Of a stretch of 64,000 nt of DNA, positions 14,183-23,210 are shown in pieces. The stretch is from positions 1-64,000 of the forward strand of contig JANYJE010000066.1 of NCBI GenBank assembly GCA_025408405.1, written 5' to 3'. This DNA is from Nitrosomonadales bacterium. Lineage in GTDB: Bacteria > Pseudomonadota > Gammaproteobacteria > Burkholderiales > Gallionellaceae. The position numbers and the translations under genes are program-made. Every line of letters begins with the position of its first letter. The stretch's first letter is position 1. The notes beneath the pieces are model-generated. The model saw only the letters and a program-made list of their open reading frames with translations. It was not told the origin of the DNA and made no database searches.

Positions 14183-14241
14183 GCCCAACGTGGAGCAAGG
14201 GGCGCGCTGAAGGCGCGTCCCGCTTGAGCGCAGGGTTGGGC
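14183..14241 (-). other. attC: attC site of the distal complete cassette
   Basis: GCCCAAC at 14183-14189 and GTTGGGC at 14235-14241 are perfect complements and match the R'' (RYYYAAC) and R' (GTTRRRY) core sites. Between them is an imperfect palindrome (GGGGCGCGC, GGCGCGTCCC). 59 bp long, 7 bp from the stop of the cassette gene at 14249. Confidence 0.85.
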
Positions 14242-14248
14242 ATACGAC

Positions 14249-14833
14249 TCAATCTGAAAGCCATAAATGCACCCAACGCTTCCCAGTGAAGTAGAACGCT
14301 ACACCTGATGATTCGATTGTTCCCGCGACAAAGCCAGAATGGCTTGCTTTGTATCGACGCACTCGACCAGGGTCGGGCGTGTATTCCGATGGTGCATCAT
14401 CAGTATCAAACAAATCTTGATATGAACCACTCTTAATTCTTTCAACGTAAGATCGACCCGGCCCCTCATTTCCGAAATCATACAAATTTGAGACATCCCA
14501 TGCCTTGCCGGATACATGGCGAGCAGCGATAAGTATTGTGTGCTTCCCTTCGGTGAGAAAGAACGCAAAATCAGAGAACCTGTCTCCATCTACATCCGCA
14601 GATGCCACAGCCAGACATGGGTTTCCGTGGTTTTCCTTCTTGTGTTGATCAACACTTTCCTTGTAGTAATCAGAAACCCGCGCTAGGCGATATTTAGGGA
14701 ATTTATTCGGCAGAATTTCCCGTAAGGAGGCTGGTAATTGGGCTTCACAAGGTTCGAGAGAGGGTGACTGTGCATATGCGCCAGCGCAAGCAAGCAGATA
14801 GATGAACAGGGTGGTGCACTTAAGAATCTTCAT
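14249..14833 (-). CDS. Cassette gene: hypothetical secreted protein
   Basis: The ORF track start at 14899 runs into the neighbouring IS; ATG 14833 (MKILKCTTLFIYLLACAGAYA) gives a clean signal peptide and a mature protein ending near 194 aa. The start is six bases from the attC R'' box, typical for a cassette. No domain recognised; the middle region ASADVDGDRFSDFAFFLTEG resembles a D-x-D-x-D loop as in FG-GAP or calcium-binding repeats, so a surface or periplasmic protein is possible. Visibly richer in A+T than rlmH. Confidence 0.75.
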   Translation of the reverse strand: MKILKCTTLFIYLLACAGAYAQSPSLEPCEAQLPASLREILPNKFPKYRLARVSDYYKESVDQHKKENHGNPCLAVASADVDGDRFSDFAFFLTEGKHTILIAARHVSGKAWDVSNLYDFGNEGPGRSYVERIKSGSYQDLFDTDDAPSEYTPDPGRVRRYKASHSGFVAGTIESSGVAFYFTGKRWVHLWLSD

Positions 14834-14846
14834 TTGTGTGCCTAAC

Positions 14847-16663
14847 GAGGTTGTAGAAAAAGTCTCAACATAAACGCATCGTGCCGTGAACCAAGCCAAA
14901 TATCAAGGTCGAATACAGGGACGATATTTCGGAGAAGAACATGGCTCGTTACAAACACATCGACACCAGCCCTCGCTTTCTCGCGGTGGATCTTCAACAG
15001 CAACTTCTGCCCGGCACCTTTGAGCACGCATTGAACCACCTGCTCGACAATGCGCTTGATCTCACTGGCTTTGATACCCGCTTTAACAATGACCTAACCG
15101 GAGCGGCGGCATATCCGCCAGCCATGCTGCTCAAAATCGTCCTGTTCGCCTACAGCCAAGGCATCGTCAGCAGCCGCGCCATCGAGCGGGCATGTAGAGA
15201 GCACATCACCTTCATCGCGTTATCGGGCGACACCTGCCCGCACTTCACCACCCTCGCCAACTTCGTCGGCACCTTGGGCGACGACATCGCCCGTGTATTC
15301 AGCCAGGTGCTGTACATCTGCGACCGCCGGGGATTGATTGGGCGCGAGATGTTTGCCATTGACGGGGTGAAGCTGCCCAGCAACGCCTCCAAGGCCCGGA
15401 GCGGCACCCGGGCTGATTTCGAACGTCAGGCGGACAAACTCGAAGCGGCAGCGCGCATCATGCTCGAACGCCATCGCGAAGAAGATCATCGCGCCGTCGA
15501 ACCCGACCTGCGCGCCAAAGAACTGCAACGCGTCGAGCGCCTGCAACAAGAGTCCGCACAAATGCGTAAGTGGCTGACCGCGCATTCGGAAGAGCGCAAA
15601 GGCAGCAAGGGAGCGATCCGCAAGAGCAACCGCACCGATAATGAATCCGCCAAAATGGCAACCAGCAAAGGCGTCATCCAGGGCTACACCGGCGTTGCCG
15701 CCGTCGATGCAAAACACCAGATCATCGTCGAAGCCCAGGCGCACGGCACCGGCAGCGAGCAGGAGCTGCTCATCCCCGTGGTCAAGGCGATGGAAGAATC
15801 GCTGGCAGACGACACGCTCATCACTGCCGATGCGGGTTACCACAGTGAGGCCAACCTCAAAGAGCTGGCGGCGATGGAAATCAACGCGCTGATTGCCGAC
15901 AACAACATGCGCAGCCGTGACGAACGCTTTGCCGGACAGGGCAAATACAAATCACTACCCGATCCGATTCACGACAAGGGCGGAAAACCGAAACAGGCCG
16001 CGCGCTACCAACCCCACGATTTCGACTACGACCCGGCAGCAAAGACCTGCATCTGCCCTGCGGGCAAGGCGCTCTACGGCAACGGCAGCGACTGCACGAT
16101 CAATGGCTATGCGGCGGTGAAGTTCCAGGGCGCGCAACGGGATTGCGTACCGTGCATGCAGCGCGACCGATGCTTGCTCAAACCGGACAAAACCAAAGTG
16201 CGACAGGTTGCGTTCTTCCAGGGTAAAGCGGGACACGAGAGCTACACCGACCAGATGAAGCGACGCATAGACAGCCCCGAGGGGCGGGCGCGCTACGGCC
16301 AGCGCTTCGCCACGGTGGAGCCGGTGTTCGGCAACCTGCGCCACAACAAGCGGCTGAACCGCTTCACGTTGCGGGGACGCAAGAAAGTCGATGCGCAATG
16401 GAAACTGTACTGCCTGGTGCACAACATCGAGAAGCTGGCACATCATGGGTATGCACTAAAAGTAGGCAATCCACTATCCTGCAAGCTGGATGTGGAATTG
16501 TCACCCCAGTAGGAAGTGAGTATAGGGGCAATACGACTGTGTTGATGCGCGGCCATCGAAAAATCATTTTCTGAAAGAAAAATGGAAAGCAAAAAAACGC
16601 GGGACTCACCGCGCTTTTTTATGTGCCCGATTTCTTGAAAAAAAGGGGTTTTTCTACAGCTTC
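14847..16663 (+). mobile_element. Complete IS1182-family insertion sequence inside an attC site
   Basis: 1817 bp. Terminal inverted repeats are GAGGTTGTAGAAAAAG on the left and GAAGCTGTAGAAAAAC on the right (reverse complement), 16 bp with three mismatches. The element is flanked by AAC on both sides (14844-14846 and 16664-16666), compatible with a 3-bp target duplication. The left flank is GCCTAAC, an attC R'' box, and the right flank continues the attC of the cassette gene at 16741. It carries one intact transposase gene and a hairpin with a T run near 16600 that may terminate it. Confidence 0.88.
14941..16512 (+). CDS. Transposase, IS1182 family
   Basis: 523-aa DDE transposase. The N-terminal third has the helical DUF772-type domain (YPPAMLLKIVLFAYSQGIVSSR). 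The catalytic domain shows MFAIDGVKLPSN (first Asp, about residue 141), a charged insertion at about 160-235, TLITADAGYHSE (second Asp, about 300), and YGQRFATVEPVFGNLRHNK (Glu, about 460). A cysteine cluster (CICPAGKALY, CVPCMQRDRCL) lies before the last motif, as usual in this family. The reading frame is intact, so the element may still be active. Confidence 0.93.
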   Translation: MARYKHIDTSPRFLAVDLQQQLLPGTFEHALNHLLDNALDLTGFDTRFNNDLTGAAAYPPAMLLKIVLFAYSQGIVSSRAIERACREHITFIALSGDTCPHFTTLANFVGTLGDDIARVFSQVLYICDRRGLIGREMFAIDGVKLPSNASKARSGTRADFERQADKLEAAARIMLERHREEDHRAVEPDLRAKELQRVERLQQESAQMRKWLTAHSEERKGSKGAIRKSNRTDNESAKMATSKGVIQGYTGVAAVDAKHQIIVEAQAHGTGSEQELLIPVVKAMEESLADDTLITADAGYHSEANLKELAAMEINALIADNNMRSRDERFAGQGKYKSLPDPIHDKGGKPKQAARYQPHDFDYDPAAKTCICPAGKALYGNGSDCTINGYAAVKFQGAQRDCVPCMQRDRCLLKPDKTKVRQVAFFQGKAGHESYTDQMKRRIDSPEGRARYGQRFATVEPVFGNLRHNKRLNRFTLRGRKKVDAQWKLYCLVHNIEKLAHHGYALKVGNPLSCKLDVELSPQ

Positions 16664-16746
16664 AACGTAGAGCTAACCGGCGCTGCGCGGCTTTATCGCG
16701 CAGCGTCCAGCGACTGAAAGGAGCGAGGTTGAGCGCCGGGTTATGC
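16664..16746 (-). other. attC: attC site split by the IS1182 element (larger part)
   Basis: The R'' box GCCTAAC is at 14840-14846, on the far side of the IS. The larger part runs from AACGTAGAGC to R' GTTATGC at 16740-16746, with the palindromic centre GCTGCGCGGC / GCGCAGCG. Removing the IS and one AAC restores an ordinary attC of about 87 bp. The stop codon of the cassette gene lies within R'. Confidence 0.78.
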
Positions 16747-17106
16747 CTTTGGTTCGTCATCTATGTATGGCTGCAATGGAAGTGCAACAGGAATGCTGAA
16801 CTTGATTTTGTTCATTGATTGTCGATTTTCTTTGCTCTCGCCAGTAGACCCGAGATTAAACATACCGGTTACTACGCCAATTCCCCCTTTCGTACCTGTC
16901 GTTTCTTGCGCCTCAACAGATATATCGAAGTCTACGAAAATGACAGGCAATTGATCGTTTGTTCTGCCGTAAAGTGATTTTGGATCGTTGAGATTGCGTA
17001 CATGAGGACTTACGCGGCCACCAGAAGCCTGAACTTTTTCTTGGGCCTCAACGACTCCACCAATCAGTTGAGAAAGGGTTTCTGAGATGAAGTCCTTTAG
17101 TTGCAT
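16741..17106 (-). CDS. Cassette gene: hypothetical protein (121 aa)
   Basis: A soluble 121-aa protein of unknown function. An N-terminal helix (MQLKDFISETLSQLIGGVVEAQ) is followed by a beta-rich part (VIFVDFDISVEAQ, KGGIGVVTGMF, NKIKFSIPVALPL). That layout reminds me of trypsin-co-occurring small domains (Trypco2), but I cannot confirm membership. A good GGGAG ribosome site precedes the ATG. The stop (TAA) is part of its attC R' box, a hallmark of a mobile cassette. Confidence 0.75.
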   Translation of the reverse strand: MQLKDFISETLSQLIGGVVEAQEKVQASGGRVSPHVRNLNDPKSLYGRTNDQLPVIFVDFDISVEAQETTGTKGGIGVVTGMFNLGSTGESKENRQSMNKIKFSIPVALPLQPYIDDEPKA

Positions 17107-17200
17107 GGTGCACTCCCTGTGATTTTATGGGCATAACGTTCAAATTGAGGGGCTGCGCGCTTTTGCGCAGGAATCTTCCCCCAATTTAATTGACACCTGA

Positions 17201-18005
17201 TTAAGCCAACTGATTTTCATACGTTGCTGGCGACACGTAGTTTAAGGACGAATGCATTCTACTGCAGTTGTAAAACGGAATATAGCTGCGCAGAACCGAG
17301 AGCATTTGGCTATCCTCATCAAATACACGCCCATGCACTACCTCCGTTTTTCATGGAGTGGAAGAAGGATTCCATGAATGCATTGTCAGTCACCTTGCCC
17401 GGACGATTCATGCTCTGGGTGATGCGCAATTGCGCTAGGCGTGCCCGGAAGGCATTGGCGTAATATTCGATACCTCGATCCGTGTGGAAGATCAGCCCCG
17501 GTGGTGGACGGCGCCTAGCCACCGCGTGATTGAGAGCACGCAAGGTCAACACGACATTCTTTTGTCGCCCGAATGCCCACCCCACAACACGCCGCGAGCA
17601 TCTGTCCATTACCACTGCCAGATAGCGGTAGATCGGCCCTACCTTGAGATACGTGATGTCGGCGACCCAAACTTGATTCGGCGCATCAGCCGGGTGTTCA
17701 TGCTGCTGGTTAGGCAGGCTACCGAAAAACTTCTTCAGGTTGGGTGAGGTATAGCGCAACGTCGCCACCCGCGCCTTGATCCCGGAGTTGCGCATAAGCT
17801 TGGCCACGCGATTCTTGCTGGCCGACACACCCAACTCATGTAACCGGCGATATACCCTGGGGCTGCCATAAGTACTGCGGCTGGCCTGATGAATTTGCCT
17901 GATCTGCCGAGCCAAGGTCTCATTCTCCTGTGAGCGCAAGCTGGGGCCACGGCTACGCCAAGCATAGAAGCCGGCACGAGTGACGCCGTACACGCGGCAC
18001 ATCAA
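17201..18005 (-). pseudogene. IS3-family transposase OrfB, frameshifted
   Basis: The ORF track gives 17319-18005 (228 aa). The rve integrase core shows WVADITYLK (first Asp), GLIFHTDRG (second Asp) and DNAFMESFFHSMK (Glu). After HSMK the frame breaks in a run of five A (near 17355). Reading one base further restores the usual end (TEVVHGRVFDED ... TYENQLA, stop at 17201). So a single inserted base, or a sequencing error, truncates the last 50 residues. In-frame codons continue upstream of 18005 (EVFEFIEANRKNNSIAL), as expected for expression through an orfA frameshift. Confidence 0.88.
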
Positions 18006-18364
18006 CGCGATGGAGTTGTTTTTCCGGTTTGCTTCGATGAACTCGAAGACTTCCGTTTTTGATCGGAAGCAAACCGGATGGCTTTTTTTAGGAGTTCGTG
18101 CTCCTCTTGAAGCACCTTGTATTTCTTCTCCAGCTCGCGCAGCCGTTTAAGCTCGGCTGTGGTTTGGTCATCCAGCTTGACACCCTGAGTCACAATCAAT
18201 CCCTCCCGCACTTGTTTGCGCCATCGTGACAGCATGAAGGGATGGATGTCCAGCGCCTCGGCAACATCCTGAATCAGGACATCGGGAAGCTCGCTCAAAC
18301 GTACTGCGGTTGCCTTGAAGTGCATGCTGTAGCGATGTACTTTGGGCGGTCTTGATTTGCCCAT
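18002..18364 (-). CDS. IS3-family transposase OrfA
   Basis: 120-aa helix-turn-helix DNA-binding subunit. The HTH lies near residues 30-55 (IQDVAEALDIHPFMLSRWRKQ), followed by a leucine-zipper-like coiled coil (LKRLRELEKKYKVLQEEHELLKKA). A run of seven A on the coding strand (18083-18089, CTAAAAAAAGC) lies where the -1 frame of orfB is open, a typical slippery site for producing the OrfAB fusion. The OrfA stop overlaps the first ATG of orfB by four bases. Confidence 0.9.
   Translation of the reverse strand: MGKSRPPKVHRYSMHFKATAVRLSELPDVLIQDVAEALDIHPFMLSRWRKQVREGLIVTQGVKLDDQTTAELKRLRELEKKYKVLQEEHELLKKAIRFASDQKRKSSSSSKQTGKTTPSR
18083..18089 (-). promoter_or_regulatory. Putative -1 programmed frameshift site (A7) in the IS3 element
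   Basis: Minus strand reads CTAAAAAAAGCC. The orfA frame is CTA AAA AAA GCC; the -1 frame continues open into orfB (KKSHPVCFRSKTEVFEF). A6-7 followed by G or C is the classic IS3-family slippery sequence. Confidence 0.6.
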
Positions 18365-18413
18365 GAAACACCTCCGTTCCGTTAGGTGGGGGTGTCAATT
18401 ATTTGGGGGGAAG

Positions 18414-18444
18414 AATAGCGTCCCGCTCGAACGGCAGGTTAGGT
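18414..18444 (-). other. attC: attC site split by the IS3 element (R' part)
   Basis: The R'' half is at 17131-17174 (GCATAACGTTCAAATTGAGG...GCGCAGGAAT) and the R' half here ends in GTTAGGT at 18438-18444. Deleting the IS and one AAT joins GCGCAGGAAT to AGCGTCCCGC and rebuilds an attC of about 72 bp. The cassette gene stop (TAA) is inside R'. Confidence 0.78.
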
Positions 18445-19059
18445 TTGTTGGTTGTTAACTTCACGAAGCCGCTCCTCTATTTCAATACCCAAACGGCGCT
18501 TGGCATAATTATCTATGCGGCCAATAAAGCCCGATAGAACTACACAGATTTTAATTTCGTCGATGCTTGACCAATAGCTTGTTTGTGCTTTTGTATGCGT
18601 AGATGGTGGGCGCAAGAAATCAAGCATGAATTTCGAAACATCGGCACCATTGCATACGATGATTTTTGGCTTATGGGTTTTGATTTGCTCTTCCAAAAAG
18701 CCTTTGCAATTACTTATAACAGCCGCAGCTTTTTTTCCTTTCGCGGATTCTGGCGGAAATGATTTGCTTGAGCATTTGACGATGTCGGTGTGTGCCGTGC
18801 CGAAGTCTTTGCCAAAGCTCCCAAACACAGATTCAGAAACCGATTGGAAGTCTTTAAAGTAACCGTGAATCGTCTCAAAGTCGTCGAAATATTTTTCAAG
18901 GTCTGAGGCTGTCCTACTGTCCACCCAATCTTGCTCAGCCGCAGGGTTAAGACCGACAATCCAAACAAGACTGTTTTTCTTCCCTTCTATAAACTCGACT
19001 GGTAGATAGTTGCGCTTAAAACGCAGCCCATATTCTTGGCATGTGGTGCAATCGTTCAT
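18439..19059 (-). CDS. Cassette gene: hypothetical protein, uracil-DNA-glycosylase-like fold candidate
   Basis: 206 aa. N-terminal CTTCQEYG could bind metal. LVWIVGLNPAAEQDW (about residue 31) resembles motif A of the uracil-DNA glycosylase superfamily (GxNP). KPKIIVCNGADVSKF (about 130) is like the central strand, and VVLSGFIGRIDNYAKRRLG (about 172) sits where the second catalytic motif would be, but lacks the usual HPS. So the fold is suggested and the enzyme activity is not. The gene has no clear ribosome site between attC and ATG. Confidence 0.6.
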   Translation of the reverse strand: MNDCTTCQEYGLRFKRNYLPVEFIEGKKNSLVWIVGLNPAAEQDWVDSRTASDLEKYFDDFETIHGYFKDFQSVSESVFGSFGKDFGTAHTDIVKCSSKSFPPESAKGKKAAAVISNCKGFLEEQIKTHKPKIIVCNGADVSKFMLDFLRPPSTHTKAQTSYWSSIDEIKICVVLSGFIGRIDNYAKRRLGIEIEERLREVNNQQT

Positions 19060-19064
19060 AACAA

Positions 19065-19148
19065 ACCTAACGTGAAGAAGGTAAGGGGCTGCGCTTTAGC
19101 GCAGTCCCAGCGTAGCGAAGCGGAGCAAACTTGACCGCAGGGTTAGAG
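19065..19148 (-). other. attC: attC site
   Basis: R'' ACCTAAC at 19065-19071 and R' GTTAGAG at 19142-19148, with the palindromic centre GGGCTGCGC / GCGCAGTCCC typical of the other sites in this array. About 84 bp; three bases from the stop of the gene at 19152. Confidence 0.8.
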
Positions 19149-19151
19149 CTG

Positions 19152-19508
19152 TTAGCGTGTGAACACATAATGACCGACTATCCATGCAGTAATAATAATG
19201 ACAACCCCAAGTGCAACACGTTGGAACCATTTTTCTTTCCATGCTGGATGCGTACCCCAAAAAAGACTAAAAATGTTTGCCATTTTCTCGGAGCCGACGC
19301 TGAAACCGATGGCCGAAACAACAGAAATAATAACGATGCCCGTCTTTGAGAATATAAAAGCATATAGCGCCAGTGGTTCGTAGGAGCCGCCGACCATAGT
19401 AAAGATCAACGGAACAACAAAAAGCGTAAACGCTGCTGCAATGGCAGAAACGAATGCCGTAGCCAGACGTTCACTGAATGAGATTGACTGTCTCTGCCGT
19501 GAGGACAT
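19152..19508 (-). CDS. Cassette gene: small membrane protein
   Basis: 118 aa with three predicted transmembrane stretches (about residues 15-40, 53-72 and 96-115, the last VALGVVIIITAWIVGHYVF). No family recognised. The ATG begins three bases after the attC core CTCTAAC with no room for a Shine-Dalgarno site within the cassette, so translation is either leaderless or depends on the preceding cassette. Confidence 0.65.
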   Translation of the reverse strand: MSSRQRQSISFSERLATAFVSAIAAAFTLFVVPLIFTMVGGSYEPLALYAFIFSKTGIVIISVVSAIGFSVGSEKMANIFSLFWGTHPAWKEKWFQRVALGVVIIITAWIVGHYVFTR

Positions 19509-19518
19509 AGGCTCTAAC

Positions 19519-19677
19519 GAGGCTGTAGAAAAACCAAATGATGGGTCGGAAGGTGTGATTTTTCGGGGGCATCAAACCCCTCCCTGATGTGAGATCGTTC
19601 GATACAGAGCTTTCTGAGAGGTCGCTTTGTAATCATGACAAACACAATTTTTTCATTTTGAGTTTTTCTACAGCCTC
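19519..19677. mobile_element. 159-bp MITE with IS1182-type ends, inserted in an attC
   Basis: Perfect 16-bp terminal inverted repeats GAGGCTGTAGAAAAAC / GTTTTTCTACAGCCTC, matching the ends of the IS1182 element at 14847-16663 (GARGYTGTAGAAAAA). AAC flanks both sides (19516-19518, 19678-19680). It has no coding capacity. It is inserted immediately after the AAC of an attC R'' box, the same position as the full-length IS. Most likely a non-autonomous derivative moved by the same transposase. Confidence 0.88.
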
Positions 19678-19752
19678 AACGTGGGAGCTAAGGGGTGCGC
19701 CGTAGGCGCGTCCCAGCGACCGAAGGGCGCGAACTTGAGCGTAGGGTTAGAA
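19678..19752 (-). other. attC: attC site split by the MITE (larger part)
   Basis: R'' CTCTAAC is at 19512-19518 beyond the MITE; the rest runs from AACGTGGGAGC to R' GTTAGAA at 19746-19752, with centre GGTGCGCC / GGCGCGTCCC. Two bases separate it from the stop of the gene at 19754. Confidence 0.8.
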
Positions 19753-19753
19753 G

Positions 19754-20407
19754 TCAATTGGCAACCTTGGTTGTTCGCTGGTTGGCAACATGTGTGTGAT
19801 CTCCGAGGTGCGTTTGCCCTTTCCATAGGATGAGGATACAGAAGCCAAAGGTCAGAGCACCTACTACGACATGCTTAATGCTGAGGGGGTAACTACACCC
19901 AAGAATGTCCAGCGTAAAGTAGGCCAACGCGAGCCAAATGCACAACGTAAAAAGATTGACGATTTGGTTTGTCTTTGAGACAGAGATATTGCCTGGCCCA
20001 GTAACATGTCTTTCAAAAAAATCATCGCCCGGAGGGCGACCCAAGATGGTTTTGTAGAGCGGCCCAGTGATTTTGTCTTCCAAAATATCAACGTGGTTTT
20101 CCCAATTCTCCTGCCATTGCTTGCTGCCACGATTCACTTGGAACCATGCAAAGGTGAACAGAAAACCAACGCACGCAACAATGAATGCTAGAAATTTTTT
20201 GTCGGCCAGATGCTCGGCACTCAGAATCACAAAGTAACCGGCGAACGCTGCGGCAATGAGCGTCCAGAAATAAGCCGCTCTCTTCCAATAGAGCTCGATC
20301 TCAAACTTCCTGATATCGAGAGCGTGCTCAAGCGCAGCCTCCAATTTCGGGATGTTCTCAGGCTCAATGCCAAAGTCGCTTTTATACTTCGCCTCGTCGA
20401 TTTTCAT
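19754..20407 (-). CDS. Cassette gene: RipA-like octameric membrane protein family (tentative)
   Basis: 217 aa. A soluble N-terminal helix (ENIPKLEAALEHALDIRKFEIELYWKRA) leads into two transmembrane segments (about 46-65 and 72-92). A conserved-looking stretch follows, NRGSKQWQENWENHVDILEDKITGPLYKT. Two more transmembrane segments are near 147-165 and 177-195. The arrangement and the NRGSKxWQENWE motif are what I recall from proteins annotated as RipA family octameric membrane proteins. Assignment is from memory, not a search. Function unknown. Confidence 0.7.
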   Translation of the reverse strand: MKIDEAKYKSDFGIEPENIPKLEAALEHALDIRKFEIELYWKRAAYFWTLIAAAFAGYFVILSAEHLADKKFLAFIVACVGFLFTFAWFQVNRGSKQWQENWENHVDILEDKITGPLYKTILGRPPGDDFFERHVTGPGNISVSKTNQIVNLFTLCIWLALAYFTLDILGCSYPLSIKHVVVGALTFGFCILILWKGQTHLGDHTHVANQRTTKVAN

Positions 20408-20426
20408 AGCGTCATCCGATATTGAC

Positions 20427-20506
20427 TTCTAACGTGGAGCTAACCGGCGCTGCGCGGCTTTATCGCGCAGCGACCGAAGGGAGCGAGGTTGAGCGCCATG
20501 TTATGC
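20427..20506 (-). other. attC: attC site
   Basis: R'' TTCTAAC at 20427-20433 and R' GTTATGC at 20500-20506. The centre CGGCGCTGCGCGGC / CGCGCAGCGACCG is nearly identical to the attC at 16664-16746. The stop of the gene at 20501 lies in R'. Confidence 0.84.
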
Positions 20507-21013
20507 CGCACCCAAGTATGGCTGGAAGAGAGCCTTGAGTTCACGGTTTTCCTTAGCGAACCAATCTACGAGTCCCTCCACATTTTCCTCGGCAGTGGCG
20601 TACTCACGATCATGTGGATTGTTCTGTCCGCCCGCAATGCGGTCGACCAGCCTCTGGAGCTTCCACGCGCCATTAACGAAAGCATTGGCTTTCTCCTCAA
20701 CATCCAGCATGTCTAAATGTCCGTGCTGCTCGATTTCCCACTTGAAGGTATCAATGCGCTCCGTGAGCTCTCGGCTTCGATTTACTTCGCCCATGTGATA
20801 AAGCGTCCAGTACGCCGCACAGTACTTTGAGAAGTGGTGCATTGACTGAAACACTTGCAGCCGCAAAGGGCGGCGGCTTTCGCGAACCGCAATGATATTG
20901 GCTTGCTCCGCAGCTATCCTTTGACCACGTGCGTAGATCGCCGAAAGAACGGAGATCAGCAACGCAATGGCTGCAATGACGTCGGAGACCGCGATGTCCA
21001 GATTAAGCGGCAT
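20501..21013 (-). CDS. Cassette gene: membrane-anchored hypothetical protein
   Basis: 170 aa. One N-terminal transmembrane helix (DVIAAIALLISVLSAIYARG, about residues 10-30) is followed by a helical cytoplasmic domain with many charged residues (SRELTERIDTFKWEIEQHG). No family recognised. The start codon ATG lies inside the preceding R box (GTTATGC), so the first codon is supplied by the recombination site of the next cassette. Confidence 0.68.
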   Translation of the reverse strand: MPLNLDIAVSDVIAAIALLISVLSAIYARGQRIAAEQANIIAVRESRRPLRLQVFQSMHHFSKYCAAYWTLYHMGEVNRSRELTERIDTFKWEIEQHGHLDMLDVEEKANAFVNGAWKLQRLVDRIAGGQNNPHDREYATAEENVEGLVDWFAKENRELKALFQPYLGAA

Positions 21014-21080
21014 AACGTGGAGGTAAGGGGCTGCGCTTTAGCGCAGTCCCAGCGCAGCGAACTTGACCGTAGGGTTAGAA
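21010..21080 (-). other. attC: attC site
   Basis: R'' GCATAAC at 21010-21016 and R' GTTAGAA at 21074-21080, with the hairpin core GGGGCTGCGC / GCGCAGTCCC shared with the site at 19065-19148. The TAA stop of the gene at 21075 lies in R'. Confidence 0.82.
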
Positions 21081-21647
21081 GTCAATTTGAAACTCCCTTG
21101 AGATGCAGGCCCAAGCTTCGAGCGACTGTTCGATACACTCGATTGCACCTGTTATGCGATTATCTTCATTGTCCACTATATCCGCCGTAATCCTTGTCAT
21201 TCCAGGCTGCGAAATCGCGAAAGTTGTTTTCCTTCCTTCGCATGTAATACGATCAATGGCCTCTTGTGGAATGCTATATCCTGATTTCAAGATGCGCGCA
21301 AAACGGCCACTACGACTTTTCGACAGACTTTGATGTTTCTGACGATTGGCGATATCAGAGCACAGTTTGAGGCAAAGATACTTGTCGATTTCATTGTCAA
21401 CAAGCGATTTCATGACGCCACTCTCTGTTGTTTTGGTGATTATGTAATCCCGAACAGACCATAGCCAAACGAAAATTGCGGCGAGATCATCATCCACTTC
21501 GTTTGCGGGTTTGACGGATTCAACAATGACGGTAGTCTCAAATTCGTCACTAGACTTTATAGTGTCACCTGCGCCGCTGCGTTGAGCCATTCTCTCTTTC
21601 AGTCTGGCTATTCGACCAACTAACTCTTCCAGTGACTCAACGGACAT
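21075..21647 (-). CDS. Cassette gene: hypothetical helical protein
   Basis: 190 aa. ATG 21647 is preferred to GTG 21650 because AGGAG is then six bases away. A coiled-coil N-terminus (LEELVGRIARLKERMAQ) precedes a helical domain with LWSVRDYII and CSDIANRQKHQSL, a D-x-x-N-x-x-K-H pattern common in uncharacterised helical proteins. A beta-rich end (MTRITADIVDNEDNRITG) follows. Function unknown. Confidence 0.7.
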   Translation of the reverse strand: MSVESLEELVGRIARLKERMAQRSGAGDTIKSSDEFETTVIVESVKPANEVDDDLAAIFVWLWSVRDYIITKTTESGVMKSLVDNEIDKYLCLKLCSDIANRQKHQSLSKSRSGRFARILKSGYSIPQEAIDRITCEGRKTTFAISQPGMTRITADIVDNEDNRITGAIECIEQSLEAWACISREFQIDF

Positions 21648-21665
21648 CACAAACTCCTGAGTGAC

Positions 21666-21743
21666 TTCTAACGTGGAGCTAAGGGGCGCGCCGCAGGCGC
21701 GTCCCAGCGACCGCAGGGAGCGAACTTGAGCGCAGGGTTAGGC
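21666..21743 (-). other. attC: attC site
   Basis: R'' TTCTAAC at 21666-21672, R' GTTAGGC at 21737-21743, centre GGGGCGCGCC / GGCGCGTCCC. 78 bp. It is 45 bp from the stop of the gene at 21789, a longer spacer than in the other cassettes. Confidence 0.85.
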
Positions 21744-21788
21744 TTTTTACTACAGAGTTGAAGCTGTATATTTCCTCTGGTTTAGGCA

Positions 21789-22079
21789 TTACGATTTCCT
21801 CCAATTGGCGCGATCTTCGATAGTCTCCTCGGGTGAAGATCCGCTTACGGAAGTGTTTAGCGTTATTCGCAAAAATTGCGACTCATTTAGCGATTTGGCC
21901 TTTTTAGAAAGCTGCGCACAATGGTTGGGCATAGCTTTCAACTTTGTTTCAGCACACGTGTAAATTCCGATCCATTTGCAATTCGGGCATTGATACCAAA
22001 ACCAATTTCCATGGTCATCAATTTCGCACCCTACTTCGAGATGACCGCACAACGGGCAAGTTCTTTTTACATACCCCAT
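21789..22079 (-). CDS. Cassette gene: zinc-ribbon hypothetical protein
   Basis: 96 aa. An N-terminal zinc ribbon with CPLCGH and, 20 residues on, CPNCKW (two CxxC knuckles) is clear. The rest is polar with KAMPNHCAQLSKKAK and no known domain. AGGAG seven bases before ATG is a strong ribosome site. It is the second cassette from the integrase. A nucleic-acid-binding or protein-interaction role is plausible, but nothing specific can be said. Confidence 0.72.
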   Translation of the reverse strand: MGYVKRTCPLCGHLEVGCEIDDHGNWFWYQCPNCKWIGIYTCAETKLKAMPNHCAQLSKKAKSLNESQFLRITLNTSVSGSSPEETIEDRANWRKS

Positions 22080-22092
22080 TTAATTCTCCTAT

Positions 22093-22160
22093 GCCTAACG
22101 TTCGAGTTGAGCACCGGCTCGAGCGCAGCGAGGGGCGTGTGCTCGAACGAGTGGTTGGAC
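22093..22160 (-). other. attC: attC site of the first cassette
   Basis: R'' GCCTAAC at 22093-22099 and R' GTTGGAC at 22154-22160. The inner arms GTTCGAG and CTCGAAC are exact complements. 68 bp, sequence different from the other sites of the array. Confidence 0.8.
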
Positions 22161-22505: not shown

Positions 22506-23210
22506 ATGGTTAATGCAAATGCACCTTCTGCCCCAACCCCGCCAAAATTGCTCGATCAAGTCCGCGACAAGATCAGGGTTAAACATTACAGCATCCGCAC
22601 AGAAACGCAATATCTTCAATGGATCAAACGGTTTATCTATTTTCATGGCAAGCAGCATCCGCGCGATCTGGGGGCTGCCGAGATTGAGGCCTTCCTGTCT
22701 CATCTGGCCACTGCGGGAAATGTGTCGGCATCTACCCAGAATCAGGCGCTTTCCGCGTTGCTGTTTCTTTATCGGGAGGTTCTGGGTATTAATTTGCCCT
22801 GGATGGAAACCATGGTGCGCGCAAAGAAGCCGCAGCGCCTGCCGGTGGTGCTGAATCGCACCGAAGTGGGGTTGGTGCTGGAGCGCATGGAAGGGACTTA
22901 CAGTTTGATGGCGCGCTTGCTGTATGGCACGGGCATGCGCTTGATGGAGTGCTGCCTTCTGCGCGTGAAGGATATCGATTTTGGCCAGCGCGAGATTCTG
23001 ATCCGCGATGGCAAGGGCGGCAAAGACAGGGTGACGATGTTGCCGGAAACGTTGATTCGGCCGTTGCAGGAGCATTTGACCAAGCGCCGCTGGCTTTATG
23101 ATGAAGACTTGGGCAAGGGCATGGCCGAGGTGTTTTTACCGGATGCGCTGGCGCGCAAGTATCCCAAGGCCGCTAGCGAGTGGGCGTGGCAGCCCGGTAG
23201 GTTGGGCTGA
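22506..23210 (+). pseudogene. intI: Integron integrase IntI, 3'-truncated
   Basis: Tyrosine recombinase that inserts and excises gene cassettes at attI/attC. AGGAG lies 8 bases before ATG. The N-terminal SAM-like domain (about residues 15-105), box I with the catalytic Arg (YGTGMRLMECCLLRVKDIDF, about 140) and the beta-hairpin Lys (RDGKGGKDRVTMLP, about 165) are present. The start of the IntI-specific insertion follows (FLPDALARKYPKAASEWAW). The true sequence then ends at about 23196 and the last four residues come from a repeat element. About 100 C-terminal residues with the HxxR and Tyr boxes are missing, so it should be inactive. It faces away from the cassettes, the normal orientation. 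Confidence 0.93.

Follow-up and report, generated by a model that had tools for sequence, protein, structure and literature searches.

Why should two mobile elements of very different length lie at the same base of two different integron recombination sites? Integrons are the chief platform on which Gram-negative bacteria capture genes, and the 64,000-nucleotide stretch of Nitrosomonadales DNA analysed here (the window) contains one: a chromosomal integron on contig 66 of a 2.5-Mb draft genome, adjoined by a truncated integrase gene, intI. One of its cassette recombination sites (attC) carries a miniature inverted-repeat transposable element (MITE), another an insertion sequence (IS) of the IS1182 family. 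A preliminary description, made from the sequence alone, took this coincidence to argue for target choice. Our answer, in which we have high confidence, is that these are integron-specialised transposable elements: an IS1182-family lineage with a DDE transposase and ends near GAGGCTGTAGAAAAAC inserts itself and, as we infer, non-autonomous MITEs into the R' core of attC, duplicating GTT. The features in question are listed below; attC sites were located with R1, a covariance model whose training excluded both interrupted window sites and included three joined empty sites of other MITE insertions.

19519..19677, minus strand (oriented with the cassettes): 159-bp MITE with perfect 16-bp terminal inverted repeats (TIRs) GAGGCTGTAGAAAAAC at 19519-19534 and 19662-19677
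19516..19518: AAC (GTT), cassette-side copy of the 3-bp target duplication, the duplication being inferred from other copies
19678..19680: AAC (GTT), attC-side copy of the 3-bp target duplication at the MITE
19673..19752, minus strand: attC with the MITE at its R' end (R1, E 1.4e-8)
14847..16663, plus strand: IS1182-family insertion sequence of 1,817 bp, with the end motif of the MITE, inserted into a second attC at the same base, its transposase running against the cassettes
14941..16512, plus strand: transposase of 523 aa, IS1182 family (NF033551, 285.7 bits against a cut-off of 270)
16663..16746, minus strand: attC with the IS at its R' end (R1, E 6.5e-7)

The preliminary description proved accurate about the MITE, its length, its perfect 16-bp repeats and its position directly after the AAC (19516-19518) of CTCTAAC; AACGTGGG follows on the other side, so that AAC stands on both, and the IS is likewise bounded by AAC on either side. 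It was also right that both elements occupy the same position of two attC sites, given that R1 lets both sites end at the inserted element. Its statement that the two share their ends needs qualification: they are near-identical but not identical, the IS ends differing from the MITE repeat by two mismatches (GAGGTTGTAGAAAAAG at 14847) and by one (GAAGCTGTAGAAAAAC at 16648-16663). The distance of 5 kb that it gave should read 2.9 kb from end to start, or 4.7 kb from start to start. At up to three mismatches the window contains four TIR matches, compared to a mean of 0.37, and never four, in dinucleotide shuffles. Read on the cassette strand, both elements have entered at the R' core (G^TTRRRY), in the arrangement attC-...CGTT / element / GTTRRRY.

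The window transposase has DDE_Tnp_1_6 and DUF772 domains, Pfam and NCBIfam return DDE/IS1182 domains only, and a single transposase gene lies between TIRs in the window IS and in 19 other copies with both ends located. The 159-bp element contains no listed open reading frame of at least 80 aa and is a MITE in being short, non-coding and present in multiple copies, with a TIR common to an autonomous IS and a target-site duplication.

With just two elements in the window, both might have fallen in attC accidentally. We therefore turn to a survey in which about 85,000 genomes were scanned for two inverted CTGTAGAAAAA ends 112-142 bp apart, flanks being ignored. It yielded 124 distinct MITEs at 116 loci in Beta- and Gammaproteobacteria, Nitrospirota and others. 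GTT is found on the attC side of 111 of these elements, on the cassette side of 120 and on both sides of 110; a purine follows the cassette-side GTT in 119 of the 120, the commonest 7-mer being GTTAGGC. For 82 of the 124 MITEs an attC ends exactly at the element, always with R' and never with R'', and not once on the wrong side (covariance models R2 and R3). Fifteen of these 82 come from loci that were outside R3 training and had been missed by R2. No attC was found in control loci of other IS1182 elements (15 loci searched with R2, four of them also with R3). Simple tests of folding and of complementarity to R'' gave significant but weak results, because the controls came from the same integron loci or because the test was too permissive, and were replaced by these strand-specific covariance models. 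The survey thus refutes accident, the probability of which we regard as vanishingly small, and supports the original argument for target choice.

Many copies outside attC-like sequence, the finding that the preliminary description had named as contrary to its idea, did not turn up: only a minority of the flank-blind set looks truly off attC, and all other copies within the host genome are at attC-like cores. Three more MITEs lie in another cassette array on contig 15, two of them full-length (CGTT/element/GTTATGC and CGTT/element/GTTAGCC) and one without its attC-side end. Contig 77 carries a second full-length IS, and contigs 15, 22 and 67 have single ends, all with the same junction type. 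The closest TIR matches in this genome (0-1 mismatch) number 11, all at AAC/GTT cores and distributed over four contigs, while the reversed control pattern gives none. A different IS1182 element on contig 68, with ends GAGGCTGTGTAAAAAC, is not at attC. The original claim can be refined: the elements use the R' recombination core, always in a single orientation, and their specificity is strong, though not absolute.

Might the MITEs instead be gene-less integron cassettes moved by the integrase, with the two GTTs representing two G^TT cassette junctions? Cassette insertion, too, leaves GTT on either side, all copies have the same orientation relative to attC, and the elements occur in arrays, also in tandem with a shared GTT (G115:C16). 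The target duplication is informative in this regard. One copy of a duplicated rhs-like fragment in Marinobacter mangrovi (L092) is interrupted by a MITE, and its paralogue, 1.7 kb away, is empty; comparison of the empty CACGTTGCC with the occupied CACGTT/element/GTTGCC reveals that nothing was lost. Two further copies have other triplets, ATT/ATT and TTT/TTT, and at seven GTT/GTT sites the base before the first GTT is not the element's terminal C, so that the duplication is 3 bp rather than 4. The natural empty site, the two non-GTT copies and the seven GTT/GTT sites show a target duplication of 3 bp and argue against integrase-mediated insertion, where the cassette would bring its own GTT; ATT/ATT and TTT/TTT in particular would be unexpected. 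Moreover, the MITE has neither an R'' box nor an attC of its own, only the TIR stem being conserved in an alignment of 40 elements, and far larger, transposase-bearing IS1182 elements use the same ends and the same site.

Flanking sequence points the same way. Among element pairs, 21 have similar attC flanks while similarity on the cassette side is absent, and the reverse pattern, a common cassette-side flank with differing attC, has zero cases, against the expectation for cassettes. These pairs show independent insertions beside unrelated cassettes. When elements are oriented by their flanks alone, the best internal match agrees in strand 126 times out of 127; as to the IS, most lineages have a transposase that reads in the cassette direction, and one subgroup, which includes the window copy, has it antiparallel. 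Strand agreement together with transposase direction per subgroup indicates that orientation is fixed within lineages. Overall, we consider the cassette explanation very improbable. Site, fixed orientation, 3-bp duplication, and the ends and target common to IS and MITE are shown by the copies themselves.

If these are transposable elements, what do they recognise? One scenario is that the short motif RCGTTR suffices and that the bias towards attC reflects survival in tolerant integron arrays. Indeed, 88 of the 124 insertions read RCGTT/element/GTTR, and the off-target copy in the rhs-like fragment also has CACGTTG. However, the window offers 122 RCGTTR sites and eight attC sites detected by R1 (minus strand throughout, from 14183 to 22160), and both insertions nevertheless hit attC. 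Under this scenario intergenic RCGTTR sites should be used as well. R'' boxes are never used. We judge recognition of the short motif alone to be distinctly improbable; since the motif is so frequent, the transposase presumably reads the core plus something of attC. The remainder of the array comprises six uninterrupted sites and the integrase gene:

14183..14241, minus strand: uninterrupted attC (R1)
19065..19148, minus strand: uninterrupted attC (R1)
20427..20506, minus strand: uninterrupted attC (R1)
21010..21080, minus strand: uninterrupted attC (R1)
21666..21743, minus strand: uninterrupted attC (R1)
22093..22160, minus strand: uninterrupted attC, the nearest to intI (R1)
22506..23210, plus strand: integron integrase gene, truncated, covering 215 of 315 model positions (TIGR02249, 303.8 bits)

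This truncated gene is the sole integrase match in the draft genome. An IS3-family element (17176-18416, transposase 17319-18005 on the minus strand) apparently lies inside the hairpin of yet another attC of the array, the halves of which are at about 17132-17175 and 18417-18440.

A second scenario is that the transposase targets stem-loops in general, attC being the commonest strong stem-loop with a suitable foot. IS1272, a member of the IS1182 family, does target hairpins (PMC5678879, PMC4923244), and some loci are suggestive. L176 is at the foot of a long palindrome that is not an attC. At two loci (L084, position 7077; L157, position 674) the apparent 3' end of a group II intron abuts a MITE at the attC core, the triplet of L157 being ATT, as expected if the intron arrived first. 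The adjoining attC hairpin is partly or wholly missing at three loci (L083, 4861-5009; L109, 7273-7431; L172), the MITE of L083 standing directly between GCCTAAC and GTTAGGC as if the hairpin had been replaced, which is reminiscent of hairpin replacement by IS1272. Against this, terminators far outnumber attC sites and are rarely hit, and the GTT core and the exclusive use of R' require sequence information that IS1272 does not need. A general preference for stem-loops is therefore, in our view, unlikely.

We return to a lineage specialised on attC. With the transposase P0001 as query, IS1182-like copies bearing this end motif turned up in seven genera of the host's family, in MITE-bearing hosts such as Sulfuriferula, Oceanospirillum, Microbulbifer, Marinobacter and Marinospirillum, and in other genomes of the class. 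IS at this site are thus spread over many Beta- and Gammaproteobacteria. Of 35 IS1182-like loci with the end motif, all 20 with both ends located are at the core; in one case a flank reads a degenerate GCGT. In a phylogenetic tree the attC-located transposases stand opposite 14 other IS1182 proteins, whose elements lie outside attC, across a branch with 100/100 support and at 22-28% identity, although branches are long and depth is uncertain. Transposase orientation is constant inside each clade, the antiparallel subgroup at attC being a single clade (100/100). Of 39 tested genomes that bear elements, 35 of which were drawn from the survey, 34 have an integron integrase, versus 60 of 143 genomes of the class. 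Other IS1182 elements (L200-L207, L222, L223) have ends such as CAGGCTGTGTGAAAAC or GATTCTGTTGAAAAAC and often follow a motif resembling ..CTTTTGGCC, which suggests other IS1182 lineages with a preferred site of their own.

The larger IS1182-type elements probably move the short ones. A variant end, CAGG on the attC side, is common to IS and MITEs of Oceanospirillum and Microbulbifer and would fit mobilisation in trans. MITE lengths cluster at 147-149, 154-160 and 163-168 bp, and the interiors of 30 elements of exactly 159 bp are only about 56% identical without gaps, so that length is kept while sequence drifts. Beyond the TIR stem, no conserved RNA or DNA structure was found inside the MITE in the alignment of 40 elements, which has one co-varying pair (position 16), and a search of 10 loci returned no Rfam match. 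Shorter elements, of about 105 bp, which combine the same ends with another interior, occur at the GTT of attC-like sites in two genomes of the family (L037 in G074, L038 in G054). Oceanospirillum maris (G137) has about 51 CTGTAGAAAAAS end motifs versus one in the reversed control; in this genome the elements have strongly expanded.

How might insertion proceed? The transposase, or its complex, may recognise the attC stem-loop together with the RCGTTR core, and the GTT that is duplicated contains the integrase exchange point; the same transposase would act on the MITEs in trans. The covariance models still score the upstream attC of an inserted element as complete because the junction, GTTGAGG or GTTCAGG, resembles GTTRRRY. 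With its body untouched, this attC may stay usable by the integrase, and the element would become the 5' part of the next cassette, with which it could travel. A more ambitious version of this model is one that we advance only tentatively: that the DDE lineage reads the folded attC (as cruciform or single-stranded hairpin, possibly in complex with the integrase) and enters it exclusively at the exchange core of R', and that MITE families of near-fixed length regenerate the core and ride inside cassettes across distant phyla, forming a dedicated transposon ecology of integrons.

Several observations argue against specialisation on attC, or at least for caution. Transposition itself has not been observed. 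Some of the sites used to train the attC models came from the same genomes, and some of those used for R3 bear elements. No attC was detected by the models at 42 of the 124 elements. Several of these are cut by locus ends, are located on a tandem copy, abut an apparent group II intron end or have an attC that looks divergent, and only a minority look like true non-attC sites; L092, L151 and L176 look like off-target copies, the rhs-like fragment of L092 being one clear insertion off attC. Finally, MITE interiors match the IS only over the terminal 25-40 bp or so, and parentage consequently rests on ends and shared target rather than on internal deletion. Derivation of the MITE from a known IS copy by internal deletion was considered and rejected, similarity being confined to the ends.

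Two MITE queries found no match in 72,556 plasmid records, where the transposase appears only at 40-44% identity, on two Pseudoalteromonas megaplasmids. Given these plasmid results, this is so far an environmental phenomenon. Of the matches in viral contigs, one is a true copy (L230, flanked by AAC at either end) and two are due to chance. Integron arrays would carry their own specialised genomic parasites, which would help account for non-coding DNA within cassette arrays. Inverted CTGTAGAAAAA pairs would provide a ready marker for array annotation, and the system would be a natural means of probing how a DDE transposase distinguishes R' from R'' in a near-palindrome.

How do these elements compare with systems already known? 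Our search of the open literature, which did not extend to subscription papers, ISfinder or INTEGRALL, turned up no description of an attC-dedicated IS1182 lineage with MITE families; an earlier one may exist. It is already known that there are attC-targeting IS (IS1111-attC), attC-targeting introns and IS1182 members that target hairpins. Gillings et al. in 2009, as cited in PMC8618304, reportedly described MITE-like structures flanking a class 1 integron. These are also short inverted-repeat elements tied to integrons but, going by description rather than sequence, they flank the whole integron and not attC cores. Insertion sequences of the IS1111-attC group are said to target cassette attC in a site- and orientation-specific manner (Tetu and Holmes in 2008, Post and Hall in 2009, as cited in PMC12444791). 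Our elements resemble this group in entering attC at a fixed position and orientation. IS1111 has a DEDD transposase, guided by a seekRNA (PMC11187229), and subterminal inverted repeats, whereas the present elements have an IS1182-type DDE transposase (PF13751/PF01609), terminal repeats, a 3-bp duplication and large MITE families. IS1272, or TnSha1, has a transposase of the same family and a structure-linked choice of target. However, it deletes or replaces the hairpin, makes no target duplication, has no preferred sequence and can insert either way round (PMC5678879, PMC4923244), while the present elements usually keep the hairpin, duplicate GTT and have a fixed orientation. Group IIC-attC introns, which insert after the attC stem-loop (PMC7923331), are likewise mobile elements inserting at attC, but are retroelements with an RNA intermediate and without inverted repeats or target duplication. 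If our interpretation is true, the IS1182 lineage would join IS1111-attC and the group IIC-attC introns as a third, unrelated type of attC specialist, and the attC core would be a repeatedly exploited niche.
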